A stretch of 44,544 nucleotides of DNA from Chthoniobacterales bacterium (GTDB taxonomy: Bacteria > Verrucomicrobiota > Verrucomicrobiia > Chthoniobacterales > UBA10450): positions 1 to 44,544 of the forward strand of contig JAICWQ010000005.1 in assembly GCA_025934755.1 (NCBI GenBank), in the 5' to 3' direction. The position numbers and the translations under genes were made by a program. A model generated the notes under the pieces. The model did not search any database and was not told the DNA's origin. It was given only the letters and a program-made list of their open reading frames with translations. Below, one piece after another: positions 9,611-36,292 of this stretch (position 1 is its first letter; every line of letters begins with the position of its first letter).

Positions 9611-10414
9611 ATGAAAAGGCTTTTCCTGACTGGTGCCAGTTCCGGCATCGGGCTGGCCATTGCGAAAGCGCTGAACGCGCGCGGGGACGAAGTTTGGGGA
9701 ACGTCCCGGGACCCTGGTCGTGTCCCCCAACTACCGCGTCTTCACCCTGTGCGACTCGATTTGTCCGATCCCAATTCAATCGACCAATCGTTCAAGACCG
9801 CATTGTCCGAGGCGGGACATTTCGACGTGGTAATTAACAATGCGGGCAGCGGTCATTTTGGCGCCGCGGAACACCTGTCGGAAGCGGAGATTCAGAGCCA
9901 ATTTCAAATTTTGGTGTTCGGCCAGCTTCAATTGATGCGCCTGGCGATGGCCGAGATGCGTGAGCGAGGGCACGGACTAATTATCAACGTCACCTCCCTG
10001 GCGTCATCGCTGCCGGTTCCGTTCATGGCGGCTTACAACGCAGCCAAAGCTGCCCTGGCGGCCTACACCATGTCGCTCCAACTCGAACTGCCGGATTCGA
10101 ATGTGCGCATCGTCGATCTTCAGCCGGCGGATATTTCAACTGGATTCAATGACGCCGTTCCGAAAAATGTCGATCATGACGCGCGCTACCAGGAGCAGGT
10201 GGCGAAAACGTGGTCCGCGGTGGAGCGCAATATGAAGAATGCGCCGCCGCCGGAGCTCGTCGCGAAACATGCGCTTCGATTGATCGATTCAACGAACCCG
10301 CCACCCCGGATCATCGTCGGTGACGCTTTTCAATCCAAAGTTGCGCCGCTCATTTTTCGTTTTCTGCCGCAGCGGATTCGGGTTTGGGGTCTGAAGATGT
10401 ATTACGGGATTTGA
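9611..10414 (+). CDS. SDR-family oxidoreductase (candidate 3-ketosphinganine reductase by context only)
   Basis: TGASSGIGLAIAKAL Rossmann motif, NNAG, catalytic YNAAK. Confidence 0.88.
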   Translation: MKRLFLTGASSGIGLAIAKALNARGDEVWGTSRDPGRVPQLPRLHPVRLDLSDPNSIDQSFKTALSEAGHFDVVINNAGSGHFGAAEHLSEAEIQSQFQILVFGQLQLMRLAMAEMRERGHGLIINVTSLASSLPVPFMAAYNAAKAALAAYTMSLQLELPDSNVRIVDLQPADISTGFNDAVPKNVDHDARYQEQVAKTWSAVERNMKNAPPPELVAKHALRLIDSTNPPPRIIVGDAFQSKVAPLIFRFLPQRIRVWGLKMYYGI

Positions 10415-11360
10415 TTCCGGCCCGATTCGGCAAAAAGGAACGGATCCAGACCCGAATCACCGGCAAGGAAAGAATCCGCCGGGAAAAGAATGCGGTCCAA
10501 CTGTCGCGAAAGTAATTTATCACTTCGGTATTGCTTCGAACCGTGCCGTTCGGTACGTCGCACAGCGCCATCGTACCCTTTTGGGCTCGAGCGGCGCGCA
10601 TCATCGCCGACCCGGGCACGACAAACTTTTTGACGCCACCTCGATCCAGGCAGCCACTAATCCAGATATCGTCCATGTAGAATGCGCTTTTCGGGGCGCC
10701 AGTATAATCCCACAACGTGGAATCGAAGAACCGCGGCTGAACCAGATAGCTTGCAGTGCCGGTAACAACCGCGACTGCTTTCGGCTCGCGAATCTGATTG
10801 GCGCGAATAATTTTCGGCAGAAACCAGACAAGGCTATGCGGTATCAATGCGCCACGGAAACAAAGGGCGGCGTCTGGAAGTTGAGCATGGTAATGCAGAT
10901 ATGTTTCCAACGCATCGCTCGGATAGATGCGGTCGTCATCAACAACCATAATCAACGTATCGCCACGACCGGCCGCCAACTCCTCCTGAATAACTGGAAT
11001 GAACTTGGTTGCCGGTCCCCAGTCCTGCTGGCAGCGCAAAATGCGGACACGCTGAATTTTCTCGAGATAACCCGGCACAACATATTCCTTTTGCTGACGA
11101 TTCGAAAACGCAGGGACGACAACGACGATTTCGTCTGGGGGGCGCGTCTGTTCCAGCAGACAACGCAGAGTGGGTTCGAGGTTGTCAATCCGATCCGGCA
11201 GCGTTGAAAGACAAACGATGACGCGACCTGGGCGCGTTGAGGAGGAATTGGATAACTGCCGCCGAATGAATCGTGCTTGCTGCCGCCCAAAAAGTAGCGA
11301 GTAGACAATCTCGGCTGTCCCACTCACCATTTCCTCCGATTTTCGTATGAACCGGCCCAT
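10350..11360 (-). CDS. GT2-like glycosyltransferase, atypical family
   Basis: VIVCLSTLPDRIDNLEPTLRCLLEQTRPPDEIVVVVPAF...QDWGPATKFIPVI...LIMVVDDDRIYPSDAL; DDD motif plus GPATK. Confidence 0.7.
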   Translation of the reverse strand: MGRFIRKSEEMVSGTAEIVYSLLFGRQQARFIRRQLSNSSSTRPGRVIVCLSTLPDRIDNLEPTLRCLLEQTRPPDEIVVVVPAFSNRQQKEYVVPGYLEKIQRVRILRCQQDWGPATKFIPVIQEELAAGRGDTLIMVVDDDRIYPSDALETYLHYHAQLPDAALCFRGALIPHSLVWFLPKIIRANQIREPKAVAVVTGTASYLVQPRFFDSTLWDYTGAPKSAFYMDDIWISGCLDRGGVKKFVVPGSAMMRAARAQKGTMALCDVPNGTVRSNTEVINYFRDSWTAFFSRRILSLPVIRVWIRSFLPNRAGIKSRNTSSDPKPESAAAENEK

Positions 11361-11388
11361 GACCTCTCGGAACTATACCGAAAATATG

Positions 11389-12150
11389 AAAAAGCCGATT
11401 TCCGATGCGGTCGTTCTTATGGCTGGATCCGGTTCGCGGCTCGCCGCAGGCGGCCACGTTTTGCCGAAGCCGCTGATTCAAATCGCAGGCCGCGCGGTTT
11501 TTTCCTACCTGATCGACGCTCTGCAACGAGCTGGGATCGAAACGGTCCACGTCGTCACCGGTCGCAACAGCGACACGCTCTTGAAGGGACTCGATCCGTT
11601 AATTCCACACGAAATAAAACTGCACCCGATTCACAACCCCGAGTGGCAAAAACAAAATGGGATTTCAGTTTTGGCCGCGAGATCGCATGTCCCGACGCCT
11701 TTTTTTTTGACCATGGGCGACCATTTGTTCCAACCATCGATTATCGAAATTCTGCTGCGCGAAGCGATATTGACCGAATTCAATGTGGCGATCGATCGGA
11801 AATTAAATTCCATTTTCGATCTCGAAGACGCGATGAAAGTGCAAACCTCGGGCGACCGCATCGTAAAAATCGGAAAAGATTTACGTAGTTACGACGCCAT
11901 CGACACCGGTGCCTTTGTCTGCCCGCCCAGTTTTTTCGATTACCTCGAGCGCGCCAAGCGGGGCGGTGATTGCAGTCTGGCTGATGGCGTAGCCGCGATG
12001 ATCAACGACCGAAAGGTTCTCCCCATCGATATCGGGGAGGCCTGGTGGCAGGACATCGACACGCCCGAAATGTTGGCGGCAGCTAAAAAAACCCTCGGCG
12101 GATCACACCAACTTCCGATACCCGGTCCGGCCGCGCCACGAAAGAATTAA
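11389..12150 (+). CDS. Nucleotidyltransferase, inositol-1-phosphate cytidylyltransferase (IPCT)-like
   Basis: AVVLMAGSGSRL...LPKPLIQIAGRAVFSYLIDAL; PFFLTMGDHLFQPSIIE; GDRIVKIGKDLRSYDAIDTGAFVCPPSFFD; WWQDIDTPEML. These match the remembered IPCT domain of archaeal IPCT-DIPPS. Start 11389 (MKKPISD) preferred over 11347. Confidence 0.78.
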   Translation, partial: KKPISDAVVLMAGSGSRLAAGGHVLPKPLIQIAGRAVFSYLIDALQRAGIETVHVVTGRNSDTLLKGLDPLIPHEIKLHPIHNPEWQKQNGISVLAARSHVPTPFFLTMGDHLFQPSIIEILLREAILTEFNVAIDRKLNSIFDLEDAMKVQTSGDRIVKIGKDLRSYDAIDTGAFVCPPSFFDYLERAKRGGDCSLADGVAAMINDRKVLPIDIGEAWWQDIDTPEMLAAAKKTLGGSHQLPIPGPAAPRKN

Positions 12151-13281
12151 GGTTCCGACAGCGTAAAAAAACAGAAGATGCAAAACCCAACGGGCCAGTC
12201 CCGCCGCAATCGCAACCAGAAAAATAAAGAACGCCACGTCTCTTTTTGTTAATTCGAATCCCAACGAGGTCAAACGATCACCGAAAAATCGGCCGCCTGA
12301 GCGCCGCAACCGATCGTCATCCTGTGTGAAAACCACTGCCGCGGGTCCGCGGCGAAGAAGATCGAGAACGTGGTCTGGTCCTAGCCGTAAACCAATAAAC
12401 ACGCACGCCAGAACGCCTTCGCTTAGAAAGGCCCACTGGCCAGCGGAGCCCTGATGAGGACTGCGGAACAGACCAAACCCGAGCCCGATCGAAAATAGCA
12501 AGAGTGCGATCAAATCTCCAATCGCATCGATACCGGGCCCTTTCTCAGAATCCAAATATTTCGCGCGCGCGATTTCCCCGTCGCAGCCATCGAGAATGCT
12601 GTGGACGTTAAACAGGAGGGCGCCGACAACGAATCCGAAATAGCTACCGCGGATGAGGAACAGAAAACCGATCACCGGAAAAGCGGTGATCAAGATTGTC
12701 CAGAAGTTTGGCGTAATCGGCGTTTTAACAAGGAACTGACTGACCGCCCGGGAAATCGGACGATTCAGATAACGCGATACGAAACCGTCTCGCGATTTGC
12801 CACTTCCCCGGAGGAGCCAACGTTCCGCGGATGGAATTTCCCTGGAATTGACAAGGTATTGCCAGCCATCACTGTCAAAATGAACGGGCGAAACTTCAAT
12901 CTGTTGCCAAAGTTTCGTCCAAACAGCCGACTCATCGCCAAGCCCCGGATCGAACTCGAGCGAAATCGCCTCGCGCAGTAATTGCTCGACCCCGGTCCGT
13001 TTCACCAATAAGCGGGTATTAAGCAAACGCTGGCTCGCCCCTACGCTGATACCCTCGACAAACTGGCAGCGGGTCAATCGCGGATGATCAGGTTGCCAGC
13101 GTTCGGCGACCGCGATCCCCGGTTGCCAGAAAATCACAATCTCGATTTTGCGCTGGCTTGAAATCGAACGAGCGAATTCATCCATTGCCAGGGTCAGACG
13201 ATCGAGCTGGCGCAGCCCGGCGACTTCCCAATTGGCCGATTCGTCTGCCAGAATAATGACACGATCGAAACTCGGGATCAT
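12103..13281 (-). CDS. CDP-alcohol phosphotransferase, DIPP-synthase-like, with about 160-aa N-terminal extension
   Basis: Intact catalytic motif DGCDGEIARAKYLDSEKGPGIDAIGD (DGx2ARx8Gx3Dx3D); GSGKSRDGFVSRYLNRPISR linker resembles the IPCT-DIPPS interdomain region. Confidence 0.83.
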   Translation of the reverse strand: MIPSFDRVIILADESANWEVAGLRQLDRLTLAMDEFARSISSQRKIEIVIFWQPGIAVAERWQPDHPRLTRCQFVEGISVGASQRLLNTRLLVKRTGVEQLLREAISLEFDPGLGDESAVWTKLWQQIEVSPVHFDSDGWQYLVNSREIPSAERWLLRGSGKSRDGFVSRYLNRPISRAVSQFLVKTPITPNFWTILITAFPVIGFLFLIRGSYFGFVVGALLFNVHSILDGCDGEIARAKYLDSEKGPGIDAIGDLIALLLFSIGLGFGLFRSPHQGSAGQWAFLSEGVLACVFIGLRLGPDHVLDLLRRGPAAVVFTQDDDRLRRSGGRFFGDRLTSLGFELTKRDVAFFIFLVAIAAGLARWVLHLLFFYAVGTLILSWRGRTGYRKLV

Positions 13282-14408
13282 GAATGAATTGGCCGGCGAT
13301 AAATCCGATAGGTCTTGTAACGCTTCGCGCCCATCGCTTCGATGAAGCGATTCACCATCACGTTGTCCTCCAGCGTCATGCTGAGTTCACCGGTAAATCC
13401 GAGTGAAAAAGCCTTATCCATTAACCGGAGGACAAGCATCTCGGCGATGCCGGCTCGGCGATAATCTTTAACCACGCCGAGCGCAATCAGCCGCCCGGTC
13501 CGGGCCTTCTTGAGATGATAAAGCAATTTCAGCAACCCAATTGGCAAACCAAATGTGGTTAGGCGACCATTTATCTTCCGCAAAGCCACGTTGACATCCG
13601 GCACACCAATTACGAACCCAATCGGGCGGTCGCCAACTTCCGCGATGAGAGTCGCGTCCGGCACGATCAATGGCTTGAGTTCGTGTGCCATGTGTTCGGC
13701 TTCGGCTTCGGTGAATGGGACGAATCCCCAATTTTTTTCCCAAGCCTGGTTGTAAACGTCCCGGATCCGCTGCCCCTCGGCGGCAATCTGCTTCAGATCG
13801 ATCGAACGGATCGTGACTTTCTCCTTGCGCGCGCGCGCTTCCGCGATTTTTCGCAGCCGCGCCGCTGGCTCGGGGTATTCCGAGAACCACCAGGCATACC
13901 AGTCTTTCGCTTTGGAAAATCCGCAGCCTTCAATCAAAGGCCCGTAATACGGCGGATTGTGCGAGGTTAATAGGGTTGGTGGATACTGGAATCCGTCGAT
14001 CAGGAGACCACAGACATAGTTGGTGGAATAATCGATTGGGCCCAGCACCTCGTTTCGGCCTTTTTCCCGAAGCCAGCCGCTGGCTGCTTGAAATAAAGCC
14101 TCGGCCACGTCGTGATCATCGATCGATTCGAACAAACCAAAGCAACCGACATTCGTTTCGTGAAGCGCGTTATAATTCGGGTCGTCGCTGGCCATGATCC
14201 GGCCGACAATTTTCCCATCCCGTCTGGCGAGAAATAATGCAGCGTCGCCGTGGCCATAAAACGGATGCTTCTCTCGATTGAGAAAGCCTTTCCGCTCGAG
14301 GATCAACGGCGGCACCCAGGCCGGATCGTTCCGATAAATTTGCCATTGAAATTTTATGAACGCATTGCGGTCGGCGGCCGAGTCGACCTGTGAAACTTGA
14401 ACAGACAT
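13278..14408 (-). CDS. GNAT-like N-acyltransferase (candidate bacterial ceramide synthase by context)
   Basis: MSVQVSQVDSAADRNAFIKFQWQIYRNDPAWVPPLILERKGFLNREKHPFYGHGDAALFLARRDGKIVGRIMASDD...; C-terminal GVVKDYRRAGIAEMLVLRLMDKA acyl-CoA-binding-like motif. ATG at 14406-14408 overlaps the upstream stop (TAATG). Confidence 0.75.
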   Translation of the reverse strand: MSVQVSQVDSAADRNAFIKFQWQIYRNDPAWVPPLILERKGFLNREKHPFYGHGDAALFLARRDGKIVGRIMASDDPNYNALHETNVGCFGLFESIDDHDVAEALFQAASGWLREKGRNEVLGPIDYSTNYVCGLLIDGFQYPPTLLTSHNPPYYGPLIEGCGFSKAKDWYAWWFSEYPEPAARLRKIAEARARKEKVTIRSIDLKQIAAEGQRIRDVYNQAWEKNWGFVPFTEAEAEHMAHELKPLIVPDATLIAEVGDRPIGFVIGVPDVNVALRKINGRLTTFGLPIGLLKLLYHLKKARTGRLIALGVVKDYRRAGIAEMLVLRLMDKAFSLGFTGELSMTLEDNVMVNRFIEAMGAKRYKTYRIYRRPIHS

Positions 14409-15352
14409 TAACTGACTGCAGTGGCCGCTTTCGGCTGGATGATGTCTTCGACTAACGACTGCGACATATTCTCCTGGCGGACAATCAGAAAGAGAAGCAG
14501 CAGATTTAGAACGCTGACTTCGAGCCAGAAAAACAACGACGGCCGATCGATGATCAGGAAAAGGAAAAGAAAGAACATCCGGGTATTTGTCATCAACAAT
14601 CCCCACCACCGCAACATTGGCCGCGCATTTTCCCGATAATGCCGACGCAAATCCGCTGGCACCTCCGCCGGAAATTCATGTTCGGCGACGTCACGCAAAC
14701 GACGCAGCCGTGGCGAGAGGACCTCCTGTTGCCAGGTAAAGTTGATGTAAAGGGCAAGCAGGAACTTCTGCCACGGATCCGTTAGCCAACGCAAAGTCCT
14801 GAACTCACACCGCAAGGCGGCAGACGAATCCCAATCCGCGCGAGAGCGACCCTTAACAAAAAACAAATAGGCGTTTCGAAAGTAATCCGCGGACGCCCCC
14901 TGGGCAGCGTGACTAAGTCCAGCGGCGAGGACGAGGACGGCAATAGACGGTGATGCACCTTCGGCCAGGCAACGCAATCCGAGATGCACATAGATGCTCA
15001 GGAAAATCAGATGATCGAATAGACTATCGATCACTCTCCCGGTTCGGCTTTTTCGATTTAGCAACCGAGCGAGCTGGCCGTCCGCATTATCGAGCAAATT
15101 GGCAAAAACATGAAGGACCATCCCGATAATGTTGATGCGCAAGTCCCGATAGAAATACAAATGGCCGGCGAATATCCCGCAAATCCCGCCGAACACAGTT
15201 ACCGTGACCGGCGTCAGTTTTAGTCGGGCACAGAACCGGGCTAACTGAAACGCAACCCGGCGATAGAATAATAGGTCGAGAACCCCCTCAACGTCACGGG
15301 CCTTGTAAGTGTCCTCCAAGGCAGAAGTTGTCAATTGAAGCTGCTCGGACAT
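14408..15352 (-). CDS. CDP-alcohol phosphotransferase family protein
   Basis: DNADGQLARLLNRKSRTGRVIDSLFD = intact DGx2ARx8Gx3Dx3D motif; multi-TM; start MSEQLQLTTS. Confidence 0.85.
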   Translation of the reverse strand: MSEQLQLTTSALEDTYKARDVEGVLDLLFYRRVAFQLARFCARLKLTPVTVTVFGGICGIFAGHLYFYRDLRINIIGMVLHVFANLLDNADGQLARLLNRKSRTGRVIDSLFDHLIFLSIYVHLGLRCLAEGASPSIAVLVLAAGLSHAAQGASADYFRNAYLFFVKGRSRADWDSSAALRCEFRTLRWLTDPWQKFLLALYINFTWQQEVLSPRLRRLRDVAEHEFPAEVPADLRRHYRENARPMLRWWGLLMTNTRMFFLFLFLIIDRPSLFFWLEVSVLNLLLLFLIVRQENMSQSLVEDIIQPKAATAVS

Positions 15353-15375
15353 TCGAAAAGCCGCCGCCAGTCGCC

Positions 15376-16692
15376 TCACGCGCTCTTCAGGGCAGCCGGA
15401 GCCAGAGTATCCGCAAGGATATTCAATGCTTCGTCGAGATCGGCACGGGTATGTTTTGCGGTAACGCACGCGCGGAAACACACACGATTAAGCGGGACCG
15501 CCGGATAATCGACAGGAGCGACCCACAACCCGCGACGCCTCAACTCATGCCCGACCTGGTACAATCGGCCACGGTCTCCAATCACGATCGGCATGATATA
15601 AGTAGTGGAACTTCCGGTATCAATCTCCAGACTGCGGAGTTGAGAATGAAAATATTCAGCATTCTCCCAAAGTTGTTTTCGTAATTCTGTCTGGCGCCGG
15701 CCGATTTCCAGGGCTTTCAGAATCGCAGCCACGACCACTGGCGGCAATGCACAGGAATAAACGTAGGGATGGGCGTAAAAGCGGAGGTACTGAATTGTTT
15801 CCCTTGAGCCTGCCACAAATCCGCCGAGGGCGCCGAAGGCTTTTGAAAATGTGCCGTAGATCAATGGAATGCGGTCCTCTACTCCAAACTTTTCCGCCGC
15901 GCCTCGGCCGTTCTCTCCACAGGCGAGCATCGAGTGGGCTTCGTCCACGAACACACTCGCGCCATGAGACTGCGCAATGTCCATCAGTTCCTTGAGATTA
16001 CCGAAATCACCGTCCATGGAATAAATGCCTTCGAGAATCACCAGTCGTCGTCGTCCTTGATGACGACTGAGCGCGACATCCAGGGAAGCGGGGTCGTTGT
16101 GCTCGAACTTCTCGGTCCGGCAGCGTGATAAAATTGCGCCGTCGCGCAAACTCAGGTGCGATCGATTGTCGAGGATCGCGACATCGGATTTGCGAAGAAG
16201 CCCGGAGATCGTGCCAAGCGCGCCGCCAAAGCCGCTATTGAAAAGCATGGCGTCTTCGCGACCTAAAAACTCTGCGACGGCCCGCTCCAGCTCGCGATGA
16301 AGATCGGTCATCCCGGACAACATCGGGGCGCCGCAGGCGCCGACCCCGTATTCGCGCAAGCCATCATGGGCCGCGGCGACTACATCGGGATGATTTGCGA
16401 GACCGAGGTAGTTATACGAACAAAGGTTGATAACCGACTGCGGTTTACCGTCGTATTCGATCGTGGTGCGCGCGTCGGCTGTGGAAAGCATTTGCGGCTC
16501 ATATAATTCACTGGCTCGCCCGCTATCGCGCACCCATTTGGAAAACGTGGGCGGAGCCTGGAGAGGATCCTGCGTTTCTTTCGCCAGGAAGTTGCTGAGA
16601 CTGAGTTTGAACGGATCTTCGTCCATTGCCTTATGTAGCGCCCCGTCGGGAAGCCCGTAGCCGGTCCCCCGCAGAGTTGCATATCGGGGCAA
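15376..16692 (-). CDS. spt: PLP-dependent alpha-oxoamine synthase, likely serine palmitoyltransferase (SPT); start may be ATG near 16626
   Basis: INLCSYNYLGLANHPDVV; EGIYSMDGDFGNLKELMDIAQSHGASVFVDEAHSM; PLP-lysine region IYGTFSKAFGALGGFVAG. SPT rather than BioF/KBL inferred from DEGS/FA2H neighbours. Confidence 0.85.
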   Translation of the reverse strand: MPRYATLRGTGYGLPDGALHKAMDEDPFKLSLSNFLAKETQDPLQAPPTFSKWVRDSGRASELYEPQMLSTADARTTIEYDGKPQSVINLCSYNYLGLANHPDVVAAAHDGLREYGVGACGAPMLSGMTDLHRELERAVAEFLGREDAMLFNSGFGGALGTISGLLRKSDVAILDNRSHLSLRDGAILSRCRTEKFEHNDPASLDVALSRHQGRRRLVILEGIYSMDGDFGNLKELMDIAQSHGASVFVDEAHSMLACGENGRGAAEKFGVEDRIPLIYGTFSKAFGALGGFVAGSRETIQYLRFYAHPYVYSCALPPVVVAAILKALEIGRRQTELRKQLWENAEYFHSQLRSLEIDTGSSTTYIMPIVIGDRGRLYQVGHELRRRGLWVAPVDYPAVPLNRVCFRACVTAKHTRADLDEALNILADTLAPAALKSA

Positions 16693-16769: not shown

Positions 16770-17381
16770 CTATTTTCGGGTCGTCTTGAAGACGTAATCC
16801 CAAAGAGGCGAACTTACCCCGTAGCCGGCGTGATCGTCCTGATAATGGTGCCGCAGGTGATACTGTTTCAGCCACCTCCAGACTCCGCGCTTCATGGAAA
16901 AATGGTGGGTCGCGTAATGGATTGTGTCGTAACAAACATAACCAAACCCGAAGCCGGCCAGCGCGGCCGGGGCGAACCGGCCCAGAGTGAGGATAAACAC
17001 GACATAGAAAACCACCGCCAACGGCACGCTGATTATCGGCGGCATAACCAATCGGGTCGCATCATTGGGATAATCATGATGCACTCCATGCATGATGAAG
17101 TGAAGCATCTTGCCCACGCGCGTTTTCGGTTCGTAGTGAAAAACGTAGCGATGAATGACGTATTCCAGGAGTGTCCAGGTCAGGACGCCGATCACGAAAA
17201 ATCCGAGCACGGTCAGGAACGACAAACCTTTCCGCACGAACGCGAGGTAAAGCATTAAGGCAATAATCGGCCCGTAAAGAATTAGCGGGGTCGCAGGATG
17301 CACATGGGAAAAAAATTCCATGAAGTTGCTCTCAAACATCCGGACCGTTTGGTTTTTGTTAGAAACGAACAACTTCTCCAT
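16770..17381 (-). CDS. Fatty acid hydroxylase of the sterol-desaturase superfamily, FA2H/Scs7-like
   Basis: HRYVFHYEP...MLHFIMHGVHHDYPNDATRLVMPP...GYVCYDTIHYATHHFSMKRGVWRWLKQYHLRHHYQDDHAGYGVSSPLWDYVFKT; all His clusters present; ATG 17379-17381 lies 8 nt after the upstream stop. Confidence 0.88.
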   Translation of the reverse strand: MEKLFVSNKNQTVRMFESNFMEFFSHVHPATPLILYGPIIALMLYLAFVRKGLSFLTVLGFFVIGVLTWTLLEYVIHRYVFHYEPKTRVGKMLHFIMHGVHHDYPNDATRLVMPPIISVPLAVVFYVVFILTLGRFAPAALAGFGFGYVCYDTIHYATHHFSMKRGVWRWLKQYHLRHHYQDDHAGYGVSSPLWDYVFKTTRK

Positions 17382-17388
17382 GACGGTG

Positions 17389-18417
17389 TTAAGCCTTAAC
17401 AACTTCCGGCTCAGAATAGAGGGTATCGGCATTCGACGGACTGACTGCGACAATGTTCCGGCTCGCGGCTGATTCCCTGGTTCGTTCGATCCTCGAAAAC
17501 AGAGTGTAGCGCTTGTCGAAAATGAATTGGAAAAGGAGACGGGTCCACGAGGAATGGAACTTGAGATTATCGTAAAACTCCGGCGCCATTGCCTTGAGTT
17601 TCGGTAAATTATTCCAGGGAATAGACGGCAGATCGTGGTGTTCGTTGTGGTAACCCATGTTCAGGCACAACCGATTGATCGGGCCGTAGTAACTGTAAGT
17701 CTCCTGATTGGGATCGTTTGTATAATGCTCCTGGACCCAGCGCGCGCCTACCGGGTGCAGACCGATCGAAAAGAAAAACGAAAATGCGAGGTAGAGAAAT
17801 CCTGCCCACCCGCAGAAATATACCACGGCCACATCGTAGGCCGCCGCGCAAACAAGATTAAGAACGAACCACCGGTCGCGCATGGTAATCGCCTTTAGGC
17901 GGGGGGGCCGGGTGAGCTGGAAAAAAGGAAAGAGCATCAACCAAAGCGCTTTTCGGTACCAAACATTGCCAACCAGCCGCGCTTCCCAATGATTGGCGAG
18001 GTCGGCGTCGTGCTCGTAATCGCCCTGGTGGGAATGATGTTTTAAATGATAAACCCGGAACCCCATCGCTCCCGGCGCGAGATTGGGCAGGTCCGCCAGG
18101 ATCGCGACGAAAATATTCCAGCTCCTTCGCCGAAAGATGAGGTTATGCGTTGCATCGTGGATGATGACGTAGTTGGCGTGGTTGGCGAAGGCGCCGACGA
18201 AGTAGGCGACAAAAAAACTGAGCCACCAATAATGAAAACCGAGCCGGCCCATCAAGTCAGCGATTGATGTTTGTAAGACGACAATCCCAAGCGCGATCGC
18301 AGCCGTCCAGCGATTGCGCACCATTAGCTGGCGTATTTCGGGGTGAGCCTTGATTAGTGCCCGGGCCCGCCCCGGATGGGGCTGATCGATTTCAGATTGG
18401 TAAAAAGCGTCGCGCAT
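17389..18417 (-). CDS. Membrane fatty acid desaturase, sphingolipid Delta4-desaturase (DES1/DEGS)-like
   Basis: N-terminal IDQPHPGRARALIKAHPEIRQLM; His boxes HDATH, HLKHH, HNEHH; GLHPVGARWVQEHY, QETYSYYGPINRLCLNMGYHNEHHDLPSIPWNNLPKLKAMAPEFYDNL match DEGS1 signature blocks. Confidence 0.9.
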   Translation of the reverse strand: MRDAFYQSEIDQPHPGRARALIKAHPEIRQLMVRNRWTAAIALGIVVLQTSIADLMGRLGFHYWWLSFFVAYFVGAFANHANYVIIHDATHNLIFRRRSWNIFVAILADLPNLAPGAMGFRVYHLKHHSHQGDYEHDADLANHWEARLVGNVWYRKALWLMLFPFFQLTRPPRLKAITMRDRWFVLNLVCAAAYDVAVVYFCGWAGFLYLAFSFFFSIGLHPVGARWVQEHYTNDPNQETYSYYGPINRLCLNMGYHNEHHDLPSIPWNNLPKLKAMAPEFYDNLKFHSSWTRLLFQFIFDKRYTLFSRIERTRESAASRNIVAVSPSNADTLYSEPEVVKA

Positions 18418-18476: not shown

Positions 18477-19199
18477 CTAACGCCAAAAACGGAGGAGCCA
18501 CGGCTTGATCACCGACTCAAAGATTATCTGACGAGACATTTTGGACTGCCCTTGGCGCCGGTCGACAAAGGTGATTGGGACTTCGGCGATCCGGAGGCCC
18601 GCTCGGTGGGCGCGAAAGGTCGTCTCGACCAAAAAAGCGTAGCCTTCCGCCGCGTTCGGGATTTCGAGGAGAATTTCCAGAGCGCGACGAGTGTAACAAC
18701 GAAACCCGCTCGTGCTGTCGAAGACTTTTAAACCGGTAATCGCGCGAACGTATCGATTAGCAAATCGGCTCATCAATCGACGACGCCACGGCCAGTTGGC
18801 AACGCTGCCGCCAACGCAGTAACGCGATCCGATGACGACATCCGCGCCCCGCGTGGCTTCAATTAATTGAGGCAGGATAACCGGATCGTGCGAAAAGTCG
18901 GCGTCAAGTTGGACTAACCGGCCGTATTCGCGGTCAACCGCCGTTCGATAACCTTCGAGGAGGCTGCGCCCATAACCGCGGTCCGATTTCCGGCGAAGAA
19001 CGGCAAAGCGTGGATGGACCGCAAACAATTCTTCGGCGTGATCAGCGGTTTGGTCCGGCGAATTGTCGTCGATCAGCAAGACATCGGCGTTCGGCGCGAC
19101 ATTCAATAGCTGTGGAATGAGGGCGGCGACATTTTCCCGTTCGTTGTAGGTCGGGACAACAATGAGCGTGCGATCAGCCTCCATTAGTCCTGGGGGCAA
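18477..19199 (-). CDS. Polyprenol-phosphate mannosyltransferase / DPM1-like GT2
   Basis: LIVVPTYNERENVAALIPQLL...LLIDDNSPDQTAD...RLVQLDADFSHDP...VIGSRYCVGGSVANWPWRRRLMSRFANRYVR...DSTSGFRCYTRRALE. Confidence 0.9.
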   Translation of the reverse strand: MPPGLMEADRTLIVVPTYNERENVAALIPQLLNVAPNADVLLIDDNSPDQTADHAEELFAVHPRFAVLRRKSDRGYGRSLLEGYRTAVDREYGRLVQLDADFSHDPVILPQLIEATRGADVVIGSRYCVGGSVANWPWRRRLMSRFANRYVRAITGLKVFDSTSGFRCYTRRALEILLEIPNAAEGYAFLVETTFRAHRAGLRIAEVPITFVDRRQGQSKMSRQIIFESVIKPWLLRFWR

Positions 19200-19248: not shown

Positions 19249-19965
19249 TTAGTACCGCAGCTCGATGGCTGCATTGACGCCAAGGGCATCAGCCCCATAG
19301 TCGCGAGCCGCAAAGAAGCCGGTGGAGAGGTGTTGATCCAACGCCCCAACCGCGACACTCCAACGAGAATTTACTTCGTAGCGCAATCCGGCGCCCAATA
19401 GGTAGCTCAGCGTCGCGTCAGATTGCATAGACTTGTAGATCTTTCGCGAATCGGACTTTCCAATCCCTCCACGAAGCTCGAGGTATGGAATTAACCGCGC
19501 TCCGGGCTGAACGAAATTATATCGGAAGCCTCCGGCCGCGCCGACGAAATACGATTCGGGCCCGTGGACGATCGCTGTGGCGATAGGGCCGATACTAACT
19601 TCAAGATTGCCGCGGAGGAACAGTGGCCCGGCCGCCTCAGTCAAGCGATAGCGCGCGGAAAGAATCTCAGTAAGGAATTTGTAATTTCGGAAGTTCTTTT
19701 TGTGCGGGTGCAGAGCTGCAACAAACCATGGGCTTTCAATGTTTTCGAAAGCGTATATGGACTCGATGCTGAACGACCACCTGGTCCATTCTTTCGGACG
19801 CCCGTCGCAGGTATCTATTGAAAGCTTGTCCGAATTCTCATCAAGTGTTCCCACGGCAGTGCCTTTGGGCGTGGGGCTCGTGCTCGACTGCGAGAATGCA
19901 AGATGCGACCAACCAATCAGCAAGGCGGCAGTAAGGGACAAATTGCGGAGTTTGCTAACGAACAT
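19249..19965 (-). CDS. Predicted outer-membrane beta-barrel protein (possibly acyloxyacyl hydrolase/PagL-like)
   Basis: 238 aa, signal peptide, alternating beta-strand pattern, C-terminal ...NAAIELRY aromatic end. Confidence 0.5.
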   Translation of the reverse strand: MFVSKLRNLSLTAALLIGWSHLAFSQSSTSPTPKGTAVGTLDENSDKLSIDTCDGRPKEWTRWSFSIESIYAFENIESPWFVAALHPHKKNFRNYKFLTEILSARYRLTEAAGPLFLRGNLEVSIGPIATAIVHGPESYFVGAAGGFRYNFVQPGARLIPYLELRGGIGKSDSRKIYKSMQSDATLSYLLGAGLRYEVNSRWSVAVGALDQHLSTGFFAARDYGADALGVNAAIELRY

Positions 19966-33175: not shown

Positions 33176-36100
33176 TTAGTAGAGAGGCAGTGTCCAGACG
33201 CTGAGGCCGTGGGTCGCCGCGTATAGCACGCGCGCGTTCGGATTGATCGACAGATGCGGTACTTCGACGATCGGCATTCCGATTCCCGCGATGTCCCATT
33301 GTTGGGTGCCGGCCTTCATTCGGAACACAGCAAAGTCCGAACTGGTGTACAAGTCTCCGGTCAGCGGATCAAACACCACCGAGGTCAGCGGAATATCCGG
33401 CAGATTGAAGGAGATGTTTGTAAACGTAGCCGTGCCAGCACCGCTCCAGCTCACGCTGAATACGTGCCCGGGCTGACTTGGCGTAGACGCGCTATACCCC
33501 GAGTAAGTTACCCATGCATGGAAAGTATTGACTGGATCGACTGCGACTCCGGTTACGACGCGTGAAGGATCAGGCGTAGTGCCAGGGACATTATGTGGAT
33601 CCAAGCGGTTCCAGGTAACGCTGGCCGCCGGACCGTCCACGTTCGTGCTGATGAATAAACGAGCACCGGTTGTGCCGGCCCAAGCGACGTTGGTGTTGCT
33701 GGTCGTTCGCTCAATTACGTTGACGTCTCCGCCCGTGCGGTCGGCGCCATAGAACGTGCCGATCAAGGATCCCGAGGTGTTAGAACCAGCCGGGCCGCCC
33801 AGACGGACAAAGTCGCCGCATCCGGGTTGAGCCGCTGAGGTTGTGAACTCAGGACAATTCGCTTCGAGGAACGCCTGATTTCCGCCCCAATCCTGGGTTC
33901 GCCAGACACCGAAGGAACCTTCGAAGATGGTGCCGGCTGCGCCAGGGTTCGGATCAGCAATGATTGGAGGATAAAACAGCGCGCCTTCGGGACTGTTTTC
34001 CATTGGTGAGCCGATAATTACCCACTTAGTCGGGTCTCCGTTCTGGAAGTTGGCGTCATGGGCTTGGCCGGTGAACGTATTGAAACGCAGGAACGAATTG
34101 TTCCGGTTGAATCCGGTCTGGCCGCCATCGCCATAGATTTCCTGGTTCCAGGTAGACGAACCGAACGTTTGATACGTTCCGTTGTCCTGCGTTCCACCCT
34201 GAACGTTGAACTGGTTTTGGTAGGAAAACGACACGCTGTTAAACTGCAGGGTGGAAAGCCCCGCGTTCATACCAGTGAAGATGGTAGTGGGGACACCGCA
34301 TACCGTCGGAGCAGGACACGGAGGCGATCCCAAGAGCAAGGCGCACTGAGAGGCGTTGCCCGTCCCTGCTGGATAGGTGCGCGATCCGCACTGGCCCGAG
34401 ATATCGCTCAGGGTGCCACTGGATCTGACAATTCCGCCGTCCGAACCTTCAAAGAAGAGGAACGGGCTTCCAGGAACCGTGAGGAGGGCGTGCTGGTCGG
34501 GATGGATCCCGTTCGGTGCGATTGCATTCGGCTGACAGCATGTTCCAGCGGGAGTGCCGTTATTTTGCGCATCCCAGGTTGCGTCAGACCAGAAGACGCC
34601 GTTGCCGGCATCGGTCGCGAAGACAACGCCGCGGCAATCAGAGCCGTGGCCGCACTCGTTGTAAGTAAAGGAACCAGCGACATAAACGATGTCGGGGAAT
34701 CCAGGTGGCGTGTAGATAACGTTGTCATACCAACATTGACCTGTGCAGTAATCGTCGATCGCCTCGTAGGTTTGAAGCGCATTCAGGTCGGTGAAGGTGG
34801 CGGCAGTATTGACATTGTCGCTGCGGAAGACATGCGCAACTGTGCCGCCTTGAGCTGTACCGACATCGCCGCAGCCGGCATACATACGGGTAACGCCGGC
34901 GGCCAGGGGAGGGCCACTCGTGACATCGAATGCGCAACGAGCAACGTTGATCGCATTGGTCGAAGGCGTCTTAATCTGAGTCCAGGTACTGCCGGCATCC
35001 AACGAACGATAGATGCCGCCGCTGGGGGTCGCCGCACCGGGGAAGGCCGCTGCGTAAACAATATTGTGATTGTTAGGATCAAGCTCGACCTCGGTCACAC
35101 CGCGGATCGAAGCCTGCGGATCGCCACCGACGCAGGAGGCCGGGCAGTTGTTACCGCCGTCCCAAATAAAGGTGAAGGTATTGCCGCCGTCGGTTGATTT
35201 AAACAATCCGAACGGAGGACGCGGAACCGGGGGATTCGAGGTCGGACCGCCATAAGTCTCATCGATACCGCGCACACTACGAGCCGAGGAAACGTAAAGG
35301 ACGTTCAGGTTCGTTGGATCGACTACAATGTCGCTGACCGCGCGGCCGAAAAACGCGTTACCGGTGTAGGTACCGTTGCTGCCGCTTCCATTCGAAAACG
35401 TGGTAATCGGGCCGATTTGAGCATTCAAAATTTGCCAGGTGTTACCGCCGTCGGTCGATTTCATAATGCCCAACCCTGCTTCGGAGTCGGCCGAGGCATT
35501 CGGTTCACCCGTGCCTACGTAAAGAATCCCGTTCGCGGTTGCGTTATCGACAAATGTCAATGCGCCAATCGCGTTGCTCATGACGTTCAACCCAGTCAGG
35601 AACTGCCAACTCGGGCTGGCCGCCAAAGCGTTTGTCGTCCTCCAGACACCGCCGCCTGCGGCGCCAATCCAAACCCGGCAAAACGCCGGAGTGCATGCGT
35701 TATGCGTATCGAGCGCCATAGCCGTGATTCGGCCGGATTGAGTGGACTGCGAACCGGTGAAAGTCAGAATATTCGGGTCGATTGCCGTGCTCGGGCCGAT
35801 CAATGACCAGGAGTTAAATCGAGGAGCCTCTGGCTTCCCCTTCTTATTTTTCGCCGTAACCTTGCCGGTCCCACTGGTGCCGGTCGGCTGATTACTCGCC
35901 GAGGAGGCCTGGAACCGCCGCCAACTGACTACGCTGTTCAGCTGTTGGCTGAACGGAGTCTCAGTGAAAGGAAAAGCGCGCATAGCCGCTTGTTCCTCGG
36001 CTGCGGTGGCCGGACTTTGGAAGGAACCATCCTTGTCGGATTTTTCGCTTCCGGAGCCAGCGACGCTGTCCTTCAGAGAGGACTTGACCTTGGCTGTGCC

Positions 36101-36292
36101 GACGTCATGGGTTGCCAGCACGTTTGTTGACGTCGCAACAAACGCGAGTGCCGCTGCTGCGGCAAAGAATGCACAACCGGCGCCGACGCGCAGGTACGTG
36201 AAGATACGACTGGTATTAGTTTTCATGGATTGGGTTAGAGCAGGGGTTTGGTTAATGGCCTGAAGGCTGCCGACTTTGGCATGGGTGGTCAA
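33176..36292 (-). CDS. Large secreted Asp-box/BNR (sortilin-VPS10-like) beta-propeller protein; start may be ATG near 36226
   Basis: 1038 aa; repeated Asp-box-like STDGGNTWQIL, STDGGNTFTFIW, SLDAGSTWTQI; N-terminal hydrophobic signal segment. Confidence 0.75.
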   Translation of the reverse strand: MTTHAKVGSLQAINQTPALTQSMKTNTSRIFTYLRVGAGCAFFAAAAALAFVATSTNVLATHDVGTAKVKSSLKDSVAGSGSEKSDKDGSFQSPATAAEEQAAMRAFPFTETPFSQQLNSVVSWRRFQASSASNQPTGTSGTGKVTAKNKKGKPEAPRFNSWSLIGPSTAIDPNILTFTGSQSTQSGRITAMALDTHNACTPAFCRVWIGAAGGGVWRTTNALAASPSWQFLTGLNVMSNAIGALTFVDNATANGILYVGTGEPNASADSEAGLGIMKSTDGGNTWQILNAQIGPITTFSNGSGSNGTYTGNAFFGRAVSDIVVDPTNLNVLYVSSARSVRGIDETYGGPTSNPPVPRPPFGLFKSTDGGNTFTFIWDGGNNCPASCVGGDPQASIRGVTEVELDPNNHNIVYAAAFPGAATPSGGIYRSLDAGSTWTQIKTPSTNAINVARCAFDVTSGPPLAAGVTRMYAGCGDVGTAQGGTVAHVFRSDNVNTAATFTDLNALQTYEAIDDYCTGQCWYDNVIYTPPGFPDIVYVAGSFTYNECGHGSDCRGVVFATDAGNGVFWSDATWDAQNNGTPAGTCCQPNAIAPNGIHPDQHALLTVPGSPFLFFEGSDGGIVRSSGTLSDISGQCGSRTYPAGTGNASQCALLLGSPPCPAPTVCGVPTTIFTGMNAGLSTLQFNSVSFSYQNQFNVQGGTQDNGTYQTFGSSTWNQEIYGDGGQTGFNRNNSFLRFNTFTGQAHDANFQNGDPTKWVIIGSPMENSPEGALFYPPIIADPNPGAAGTIFEGSFGVWRTQDWGGNQAFLEANCPEFTTSAAQPGCGDFVRLGGPAGSNTSGSLIGTFYGADRTGGDVNVIERTTSNTNVAWAGTTGARLFISTNVDGPAASVTWNRLDPHNVPGTTPDPSRVVTGVAVDPVNTFHAWVTYSGYSASTPSQPGHVFSVSWSGAGTATFTNISFNLPDIPLTSVVFDPLTGDLYTSSDFAVFRMKAGTQQWDIAGIGMPIVEVPHLSINPNARVLYAATHGLSVWTLPLY

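Follow-up and report, generated by a model that had tools for sequence, protein, structure and literature searches.

A bacterial branch of the DES desaturase family and its linkage to ceramide-synthase homologs in a soil Verrucomicrobiota genome and beyond

The sphingolipids described from bacteria are usually dihydro (saturated) forms, and to our knowledge the 4-ene of ceramides is treated as a eukaryotic feature. A bacterial gene resembling the sphingolipid desaturase DES, which in animals and fungi converts dihydroceramide to ceramide, raises the questions of whether its product truly belongs to this family, in which pathway it would operate, and where it came from. The window analyzed here, i.e., the whole stretch of DNA under study, is an entire contig of 44.5 kb from a 2.97-Mb genome (98.5% complete, 258 contigs) of a soil bacterium of the Verrucomicrobiota, whose relatives are Verrucomicrobiota of the Spartobacteria/Chthoniobacterales/Udaeobacter type. 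From sequence comparisons, we consider the gene product to be probably a membrane-integral His-box di-iron enzyme of a bacterial DES branch that operates in a bacterial ceramide pathway specified by the surrounding genes.

The desaturase gene is a single open frame with an ATG start on the minus strand, lying exactly at the coordinates first given for it, and the plus strand of the same interval carries many stops. Its product matched the Lipid_DES domain (PF08557) at 30.1 bits (cut-off 23), and FA_desaturase (PF00487) was also above the Pfam cut-off; both domains were matched in 37 of 37 diverse bacterial relatives, the best PF08557 match reaching 6e-18. The catalytic ligands are intact, with all eight box histidines (HxxxH, HxxHH, and HxxHH) invariant across the 37 relatives aligned. 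The preliminary description had claimed a similarity to DES1 extending beyond the three His boxes into an N-terminal block (IDQPHPGRARALIKAHPEIRQLM) and a C-terminal block (QETYSYYGPINRLCLNMGYHNEHHDLPSIPWNNLPKLKAMAPEFYDNLKFHSSW). This was borne out by the PF08557 score and by the alignment with a spliced fungal DES (34% identity, 327 columns, E=4e-58), which runs end to end with the His boxes in register. The supposed specificity of these blocks for DEGS failed for 'YGP.N...N.GYHNEHH', which also occurs, together with a similar N-terminus, in a distant unnamed desaturase family of Pseudomonadota (L140/L141, ~25% identity); hence, the C-terminal block is partly non-exclusive to DES. The L140/L141 family is devoid of ETYSYYG, and on the sequences compared DES is marked more specifically by 'ETYSYYG' and PF08557.

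Searches by sequence with the window desaturase found no relative among solved structures, and two scans of viral contigs for desaturase relatives found none. The AlphaFold2 model (pLDDT 87.6, pTM 0.85) is of low confidence only in the stretch that starts at residue 316. Foldseek returned no close solved relative, with AlkB (8f6t; probability 1.00, TM 0.44) and human SCD1 (0.82) ranking behind two chloroplast motor complex subunits (8xqw, 8xks); the predicted fold is that of a membrane desaturase/AlkB, a match that speaks to fold class only. Profile, alignment, tree (below), and fold class support membership in the DES/DEGS family. The label 'DEGS1-like Delta4-desaturase' originally given to the gene was thus right as to family and too narrow as to 'DEGS1', the DES1 and DES2 types being inseparable here.

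Table 1. Coordinates of the desaturase gene, its sequence features, and the neighboring genes within the window
Feature	Position	Strand	Evidence and remarks
DES-family membrane desaturase	17389..18417	-	342 aa; PF00487 6.4e-29, PF08557 3.2e-7
Lipid_DES N-terminal domain (PF08557)	18316..18414	-	residues 2-34
His box 1, HDATH	18145..18159	-	residues 87-91; both His invariant in 37 relatives
His box 2, HLKHH	18034..18048	-	residues 124-128; three His invariant in 37 relatives
His box 3, HNEHH	17635..17649	-	residues 257-261; three His invariant in 37 relatives
Scs7/FA2H-like fatty-acid hydroxylase	16770..17453	-	PF04116 1.8e-19; frame overlaps DES 3' end
Serine-palmitoyltransferase-like alpha-oxoamine synthase	15376..16692	-	SPT 3a2b 4e-75, best solved match; start uncertain
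CDP-alcohol phosphatidyltransferase-family protein	14408..15481	-	PF01066 7.7e-11; start uncertain; possible head-group transferase
YghO/CC_1154-type bCerS homolog	13278..14609	-	likely start ATG 14408
Second CDP-alcohol phosphatidyltransferase-family protein	12103..13281	-	PF01066 6.9e-8
Nucleotidyltransferase	11347..12150	+	PF12804 1.7e-13; possible maker of CDP-activated head group
Short-chain dehydrogenase	9611..10414	+	candidate 3-ketosphinganine/3-keto-ceramide reductase
GT2 glycosyltransferase	18477..19199	-	PF00535 3.6e-24; upstream of DES, 59 bp gap

The genes located 3' of the desaturase on the minus strand are, in order, a hydroxylase, a serine palmitoyltransferase (SPT)-like enzyme, a CDP-alcohol transferase, a YghO-type acyltransferase, and a second CDP-alcohol transferase, with small gaps or overlaps and several uncertain start codons. 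The hydroxylase, whose true start may be an ATG at 17432 or 17381, matches the structures 4zr1 and 4zr0 of Scs7, the yeast ceramide fatty-acid hydroxylase (4.8e-33 and 9.2e-33), and orthologs of FA2H have been reported in myxobacteria (PMC10002949). The acyltransferase shares 36.9% identity over 387 aligned residues (E=3e-81) with YghO of E. coli BL21, the counterpart of Caulobacter CC_1154, which is required for dihydroceramide formation (PMC9386255; PMC11324152), and is therefore referred to below as the bacterial ceramide synthase (bCerS) homolog. Among the flanking genes, the nucleotidyltransferase matched NF041135 (6e-36, far below cut-off), and the short-chain dehydrogenase (SDR) matched the KdsR model NF049977 (1.7e-50, 262 of 267 positions) with 172 bits against a cut-off of 400, another SDR model scoring higher; the SDR lies near the cluster in relatives as well. 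The GT2 gene is an unsure member of the cluster, with few matches near DES in other genomes. Upstream of the cluster, 19249-19965 (minus strand) gives a sub-threshold match to the lipid A 3-O-deacylase PagL (19.9 bits, cut-off 23), and elsewhere in the window a 1038-aa open frame (33176-36292, minus strand) has no Pfam match.

The distribution of this arrangement was examined by scanning GTDB species genomes with peptide patterns, in which at least 599 stretches matched and at least 560 encoded relatives. The best 80 of these relatives came from Verrucomicrobiota, Bacteroidota, Ignavibacteriota, and Alphaproteobacteria, with one contig each labelled Acidobacteria and Planctomycetaceae, and they include the cultured alphaproteobacterial carriers Methylocapsa, Beijerinckia, and Afipia. 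Closer to the window, a strong DES homolog (E<1e-80) was present in 18 of 37 same-family genomes, its own included (identity 66-89%), and in none of 21 genomes from other families of the order. Among loci in which DES is flanked by at least 4 kb on either side, bCerS and SPT-like genes were both nearby in 12/13 Pseudomonadota, 7/8 Verrucomicrobiota, the single locus labelled Acidobacteriota, and 2/16 Bacteroidota. Counting against the pathway reading, none of the ten Ignavibacteriota loci had both genes near DES, and most of the Bacteroidota loci examined carried DES apart from them. The alphaproteobacterial SPT and bCerS partners are only about 29-36% identical to those of the window; therefore, the linkage to DES was kept, or formed again, over a long divergence. 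Of 24 Verrucomicrobiota loci, 21 had FAH-like matches in the vicinity of DES.

Individual loci illustrate the same association. The Saprospiraceae locus L101 reads hydroxylase-SPT-bCerS-DES-epimerase with overlapping ORFs, and Methylocapsa acidiphila B2 (L099) carries SPT-bCerS-DES-GT21. Genes of the GT21 family were observed close to DES in Alphaproteobacteria (L099:11061-12191, with PF13506 at 5.9e-49, and L182:13191-14261), hinting at glycosylated unsaturated ceramides. Beyond the immediate neighborhoods, a strong match of the SPT/alpha-oxoamine synthase (AOS) type was found in all 29 genomes tested from DES loci, and the genomes G457, G462, G852, G958, G1030, and G954 hold adjacent SPT-like and bCerS genes elsewhere than at DES. 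In a Pseudomonadota sample of 299 genomes, bCerS was found in 26 and DES in four, all four lying within the 26 (hypergeometric p ~5e-5; ~5e-4 without the genome that centered the search), values that are only indicative because the genomes are partly related. The same comparison is uninformative in Bacteroidota, in which a bCerS-like match is near universal (288/299 genomes). Together, the gene neighborhoods in separate phyla independently support a predicted sphingolipid function for DES, and the location of a DES relative inside a ceramide cluster therefore suggests that some bacteria probably make 'eukaryote-style' unsaturated sphingolipids.

From these gene contents we infer the substrate, the regiochemistry, the order of steps, the electron donor, and the head group of a possible pathway. 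The SPT-like enzyme would condense serine with an acyl thioester, its product would be N-acylated by the YghO-type bCerS, a reductase would reduce the 3-keto group, and the Scs7/FA2H-like enzyme would 2-hydroxylate the acyl chain. The window DES would most likely desaturate the long-chain base of a bacterial dihydroceramide, using O2 and two electrons to introduce a 4,5 double bond: a di-iron centre held by the box histidines may activate O2 and take hydrogen from C4 and then from C5, leaving the 4-ene, a course established for DES1. The CDP-alcohol transferases would act last, adding a phospho-head group. The Caulobacter pathway has Spt and bCerS in the cytoplasm and CerR in the periplasm (PMC11087976); if the layout were the same here, a desaturase facing the cytoplasm would encounter 3-keto-dihydroceramide that is still to be reduced. 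In the reductase candidate of the window, a short SDR, no signal peptide is obvious by eye, so this step might take place in the cytoplasm instead. An inositol head group, to which the nucleotidyltransferase and the CDP-alcohol transferases pointed, as did an alternative inositol cluster (PMC9246714), is disfavored because myo-inositol-phosphate synthase (PF07994) was matched in none of six genomes, the window's own included, and was matched in the control genomes.

The main rival to desaturation is C4-hydroxylation, in which the enzyme would be a sphinganine/dihydroceramide C4-hydroxylase, or a bifunctional enzyme of the DES2 type, yielding phytoceramide instead of mainly 4-ene ceramide. DES2 belongs to this family and has been described as a Delta4-desaturase/C4-monooxygenase (PMC13161914), and the sequence analyzed gives nothing to separate the two activities. 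The cluster already includes a hydroxylase of another family, the Scs7/FA2H-like protein; its expected target is the acyl chain. We regard C4-hydroxylation as the less likely outcome, though one to be taken seriously, and Delta4-desaturation as the preferred reading.

A second alternative, which we hold to be improbable, concerns the substrate: if the alpha-oxoamine synthase of the cluster is not an SPT, the desaturase could act on another sphingolipid-like amino lipid, such as a capnine-type sulfonolipid or one built on another amino-acid base. The window synthase indeed falls below all curated NCBIfam cut-offs for SPT and other models, with bioF nominally the best, and its best E. coli match is KBL, both points counting against the pathway reading; it is also matched by the structure of a cysteate fatty acyltransferase. 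Its matches to SPT structures are stronger (256 vs 198 bits), and the motifs GTFSK and DEAHS are like those of E. coli SPT and unlike GTLGK/DDSHA of E. coli KBL or VTFGK/DDAHG of BioF. The linked SPT of Saprospiraceae L101 passes the curated NCBI cut-off (647 vs 640). In an AOS tree the clades were resolved, and the placement of SPT versus KBL/BioF was not separated because the reference branches are long.

Still less probable is an ordinary desaturase/hydroxylase of acyl lipids, carotenoids, or small molecules bearing its His boxes by family resemblance only. NCBIfam models for CrtR, GntB, and CrtW did give weak matches to the window DES (9e-7 to 1e-4, far below cut-offs), and 'GYHNEHH' is shared with the distant L140/L141 family. 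Against this stand the presence of PF08557 in all relatives, the separation of DES from L140/L141 in the tree, and the linkage to ceramide synthase in several phyla, a context that contradicts an ordinary desaturase; the two sampled genomes of the L140/L141 family gave no bCerS match.

To address the origin of the gene, two trees were compared. Searching 390 Verrucomicrobiota genomes for PF08557 had yielded four bacterial genes and one intron-bearing contig (L022; contig C10 of assembly G398, 13 kb), on which a DES gene carries a single 74-bp intron; we read it as fungal contamination of that assembly, and its spliced product (325 aa) is our sole tool-verified eukaryotic reference. The first tree (80 rows) also included sequences that we take to be fly and Arabidopsis DES, whose placement is a lead and not a test. 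In it, these sequences, together with the fungal DES, joined the Bacteroidota L169/L179 at 100/100, and this eukaryote-type group was placed among other Bacteroidota DES. The second tree was built with the fly and Arabidopsis sequences removed, four outgroup rows, and the one verified eukaryotic row, and there the fungal DES still joined L169/L179 (100/99). The DES family separated from the outgroups in both trees. The window DES grouped with DES, including the fungal one, apart from L140/L141 (100/100 in the second tree), in keeping with the proposed placement in the DEGS clade.

Within the family, both trees place the window copy in a distinct bacterial branch with good support, outside the eukaryotic branch. 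Being deep in that branch, it is not a recent eukaryotic gene; of the origins suggested earlier, horizontal acquisition from eukaryotes is therefore not supported in the form of a recent event, the fungal DES joining a different set of sequences, from Bacteroidota, as described. Assembly contamination or a recent gift from a eukaryote, to which L022 lends precedent by showing eukaryotic DES contigs in bacterial assemblies, is contradicted by tree and context to the point of being negligible, since the window gene is intronless, homologs recur across its family, and its contig has even GC and carries the bacterial housekeeping genes kdtA, glnE, rho, typA, and dxr. Placing the fungal lineage outside every bacterial DES was rejected by the AU test (p=0.021), with the caveat of a long fungal branch; a fungal plus L169-type branch sister to all other bacterial DES was not rejected (p=0.335). 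Clearly eukaryote-like DES were observed in the Bacteroidota L169, L170, L171, and L179 (genomes G958, G1030, G852, and G954), the first three with 40-42% identity to fungal DES and all grouping with it (100/99); this lineage could be either a donor to eukaryotes or a recipient from them. We tentatively propose, as a possibility rather than an expectation, that the DES family is bacterial in origin and diversified beside SPT and YghO-type ceramide synthases, that the eukaryotic Delta4-desaturase came from a Bacteroidota-like donor, and that these bacteria independently make hydroxylated, 4-unsaturated ceramides.

In the open-licence literature searched we found no description of a bacterial Delta4-sphingolipid desaturase, which is weak evidence of its absence from the literature. 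The kind of enzyme is already known; a broad bacterial DES branch tied to bacterial ceramide clusters appears to be new, and that branch is probably long-established. If DES is indeed widespread in bacterial ceramide clusters, eukaryote-type ceramides may be among the lipids of soil and freshwater bacteria, which the cultured carriers Methylocapsa, Beijerinckia, and Afipia would allow to be tested directly. The branch also bears on the source of the eukaryotic enzyme, and it offers bacterial homologs of an enzyme that had no match among solved structures in our sequence searches.

Compared with the known systems, the window DES shares with eukaryotic DEGS1/DES1 and DES2 both PF08557 and PF00487, the three His boxes, the 'QETYSYYG' block, and an end-to-end alignment. 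It differs in being only 34% identical to the fungal DES, in its separate bacterial branch, and in its location in a bacterial operon whose ceramide synthase is bacterial and non-homologous to the eukaryotic one. Relative to yeast Scs7 and mammalian FA2H, the accompanying hydroxylase is short (227 aa), its Scs7 match spanning the hydroxylase part only. With the Caulobacter and E. coli BL21 pathway (Spt, CerR, and bCerS; PMC11324152, PMC9386255, PMC11087976) the window shares a YghO-type bCerS (37%) and an SPT-like enzyme, the latter divergent. The Caulobacter and E. coli BL21 clusters, as described in those papers, are without a DES-family desaturase, whereas the window adds to this core both DES and an Scs7-like hydroxylase.
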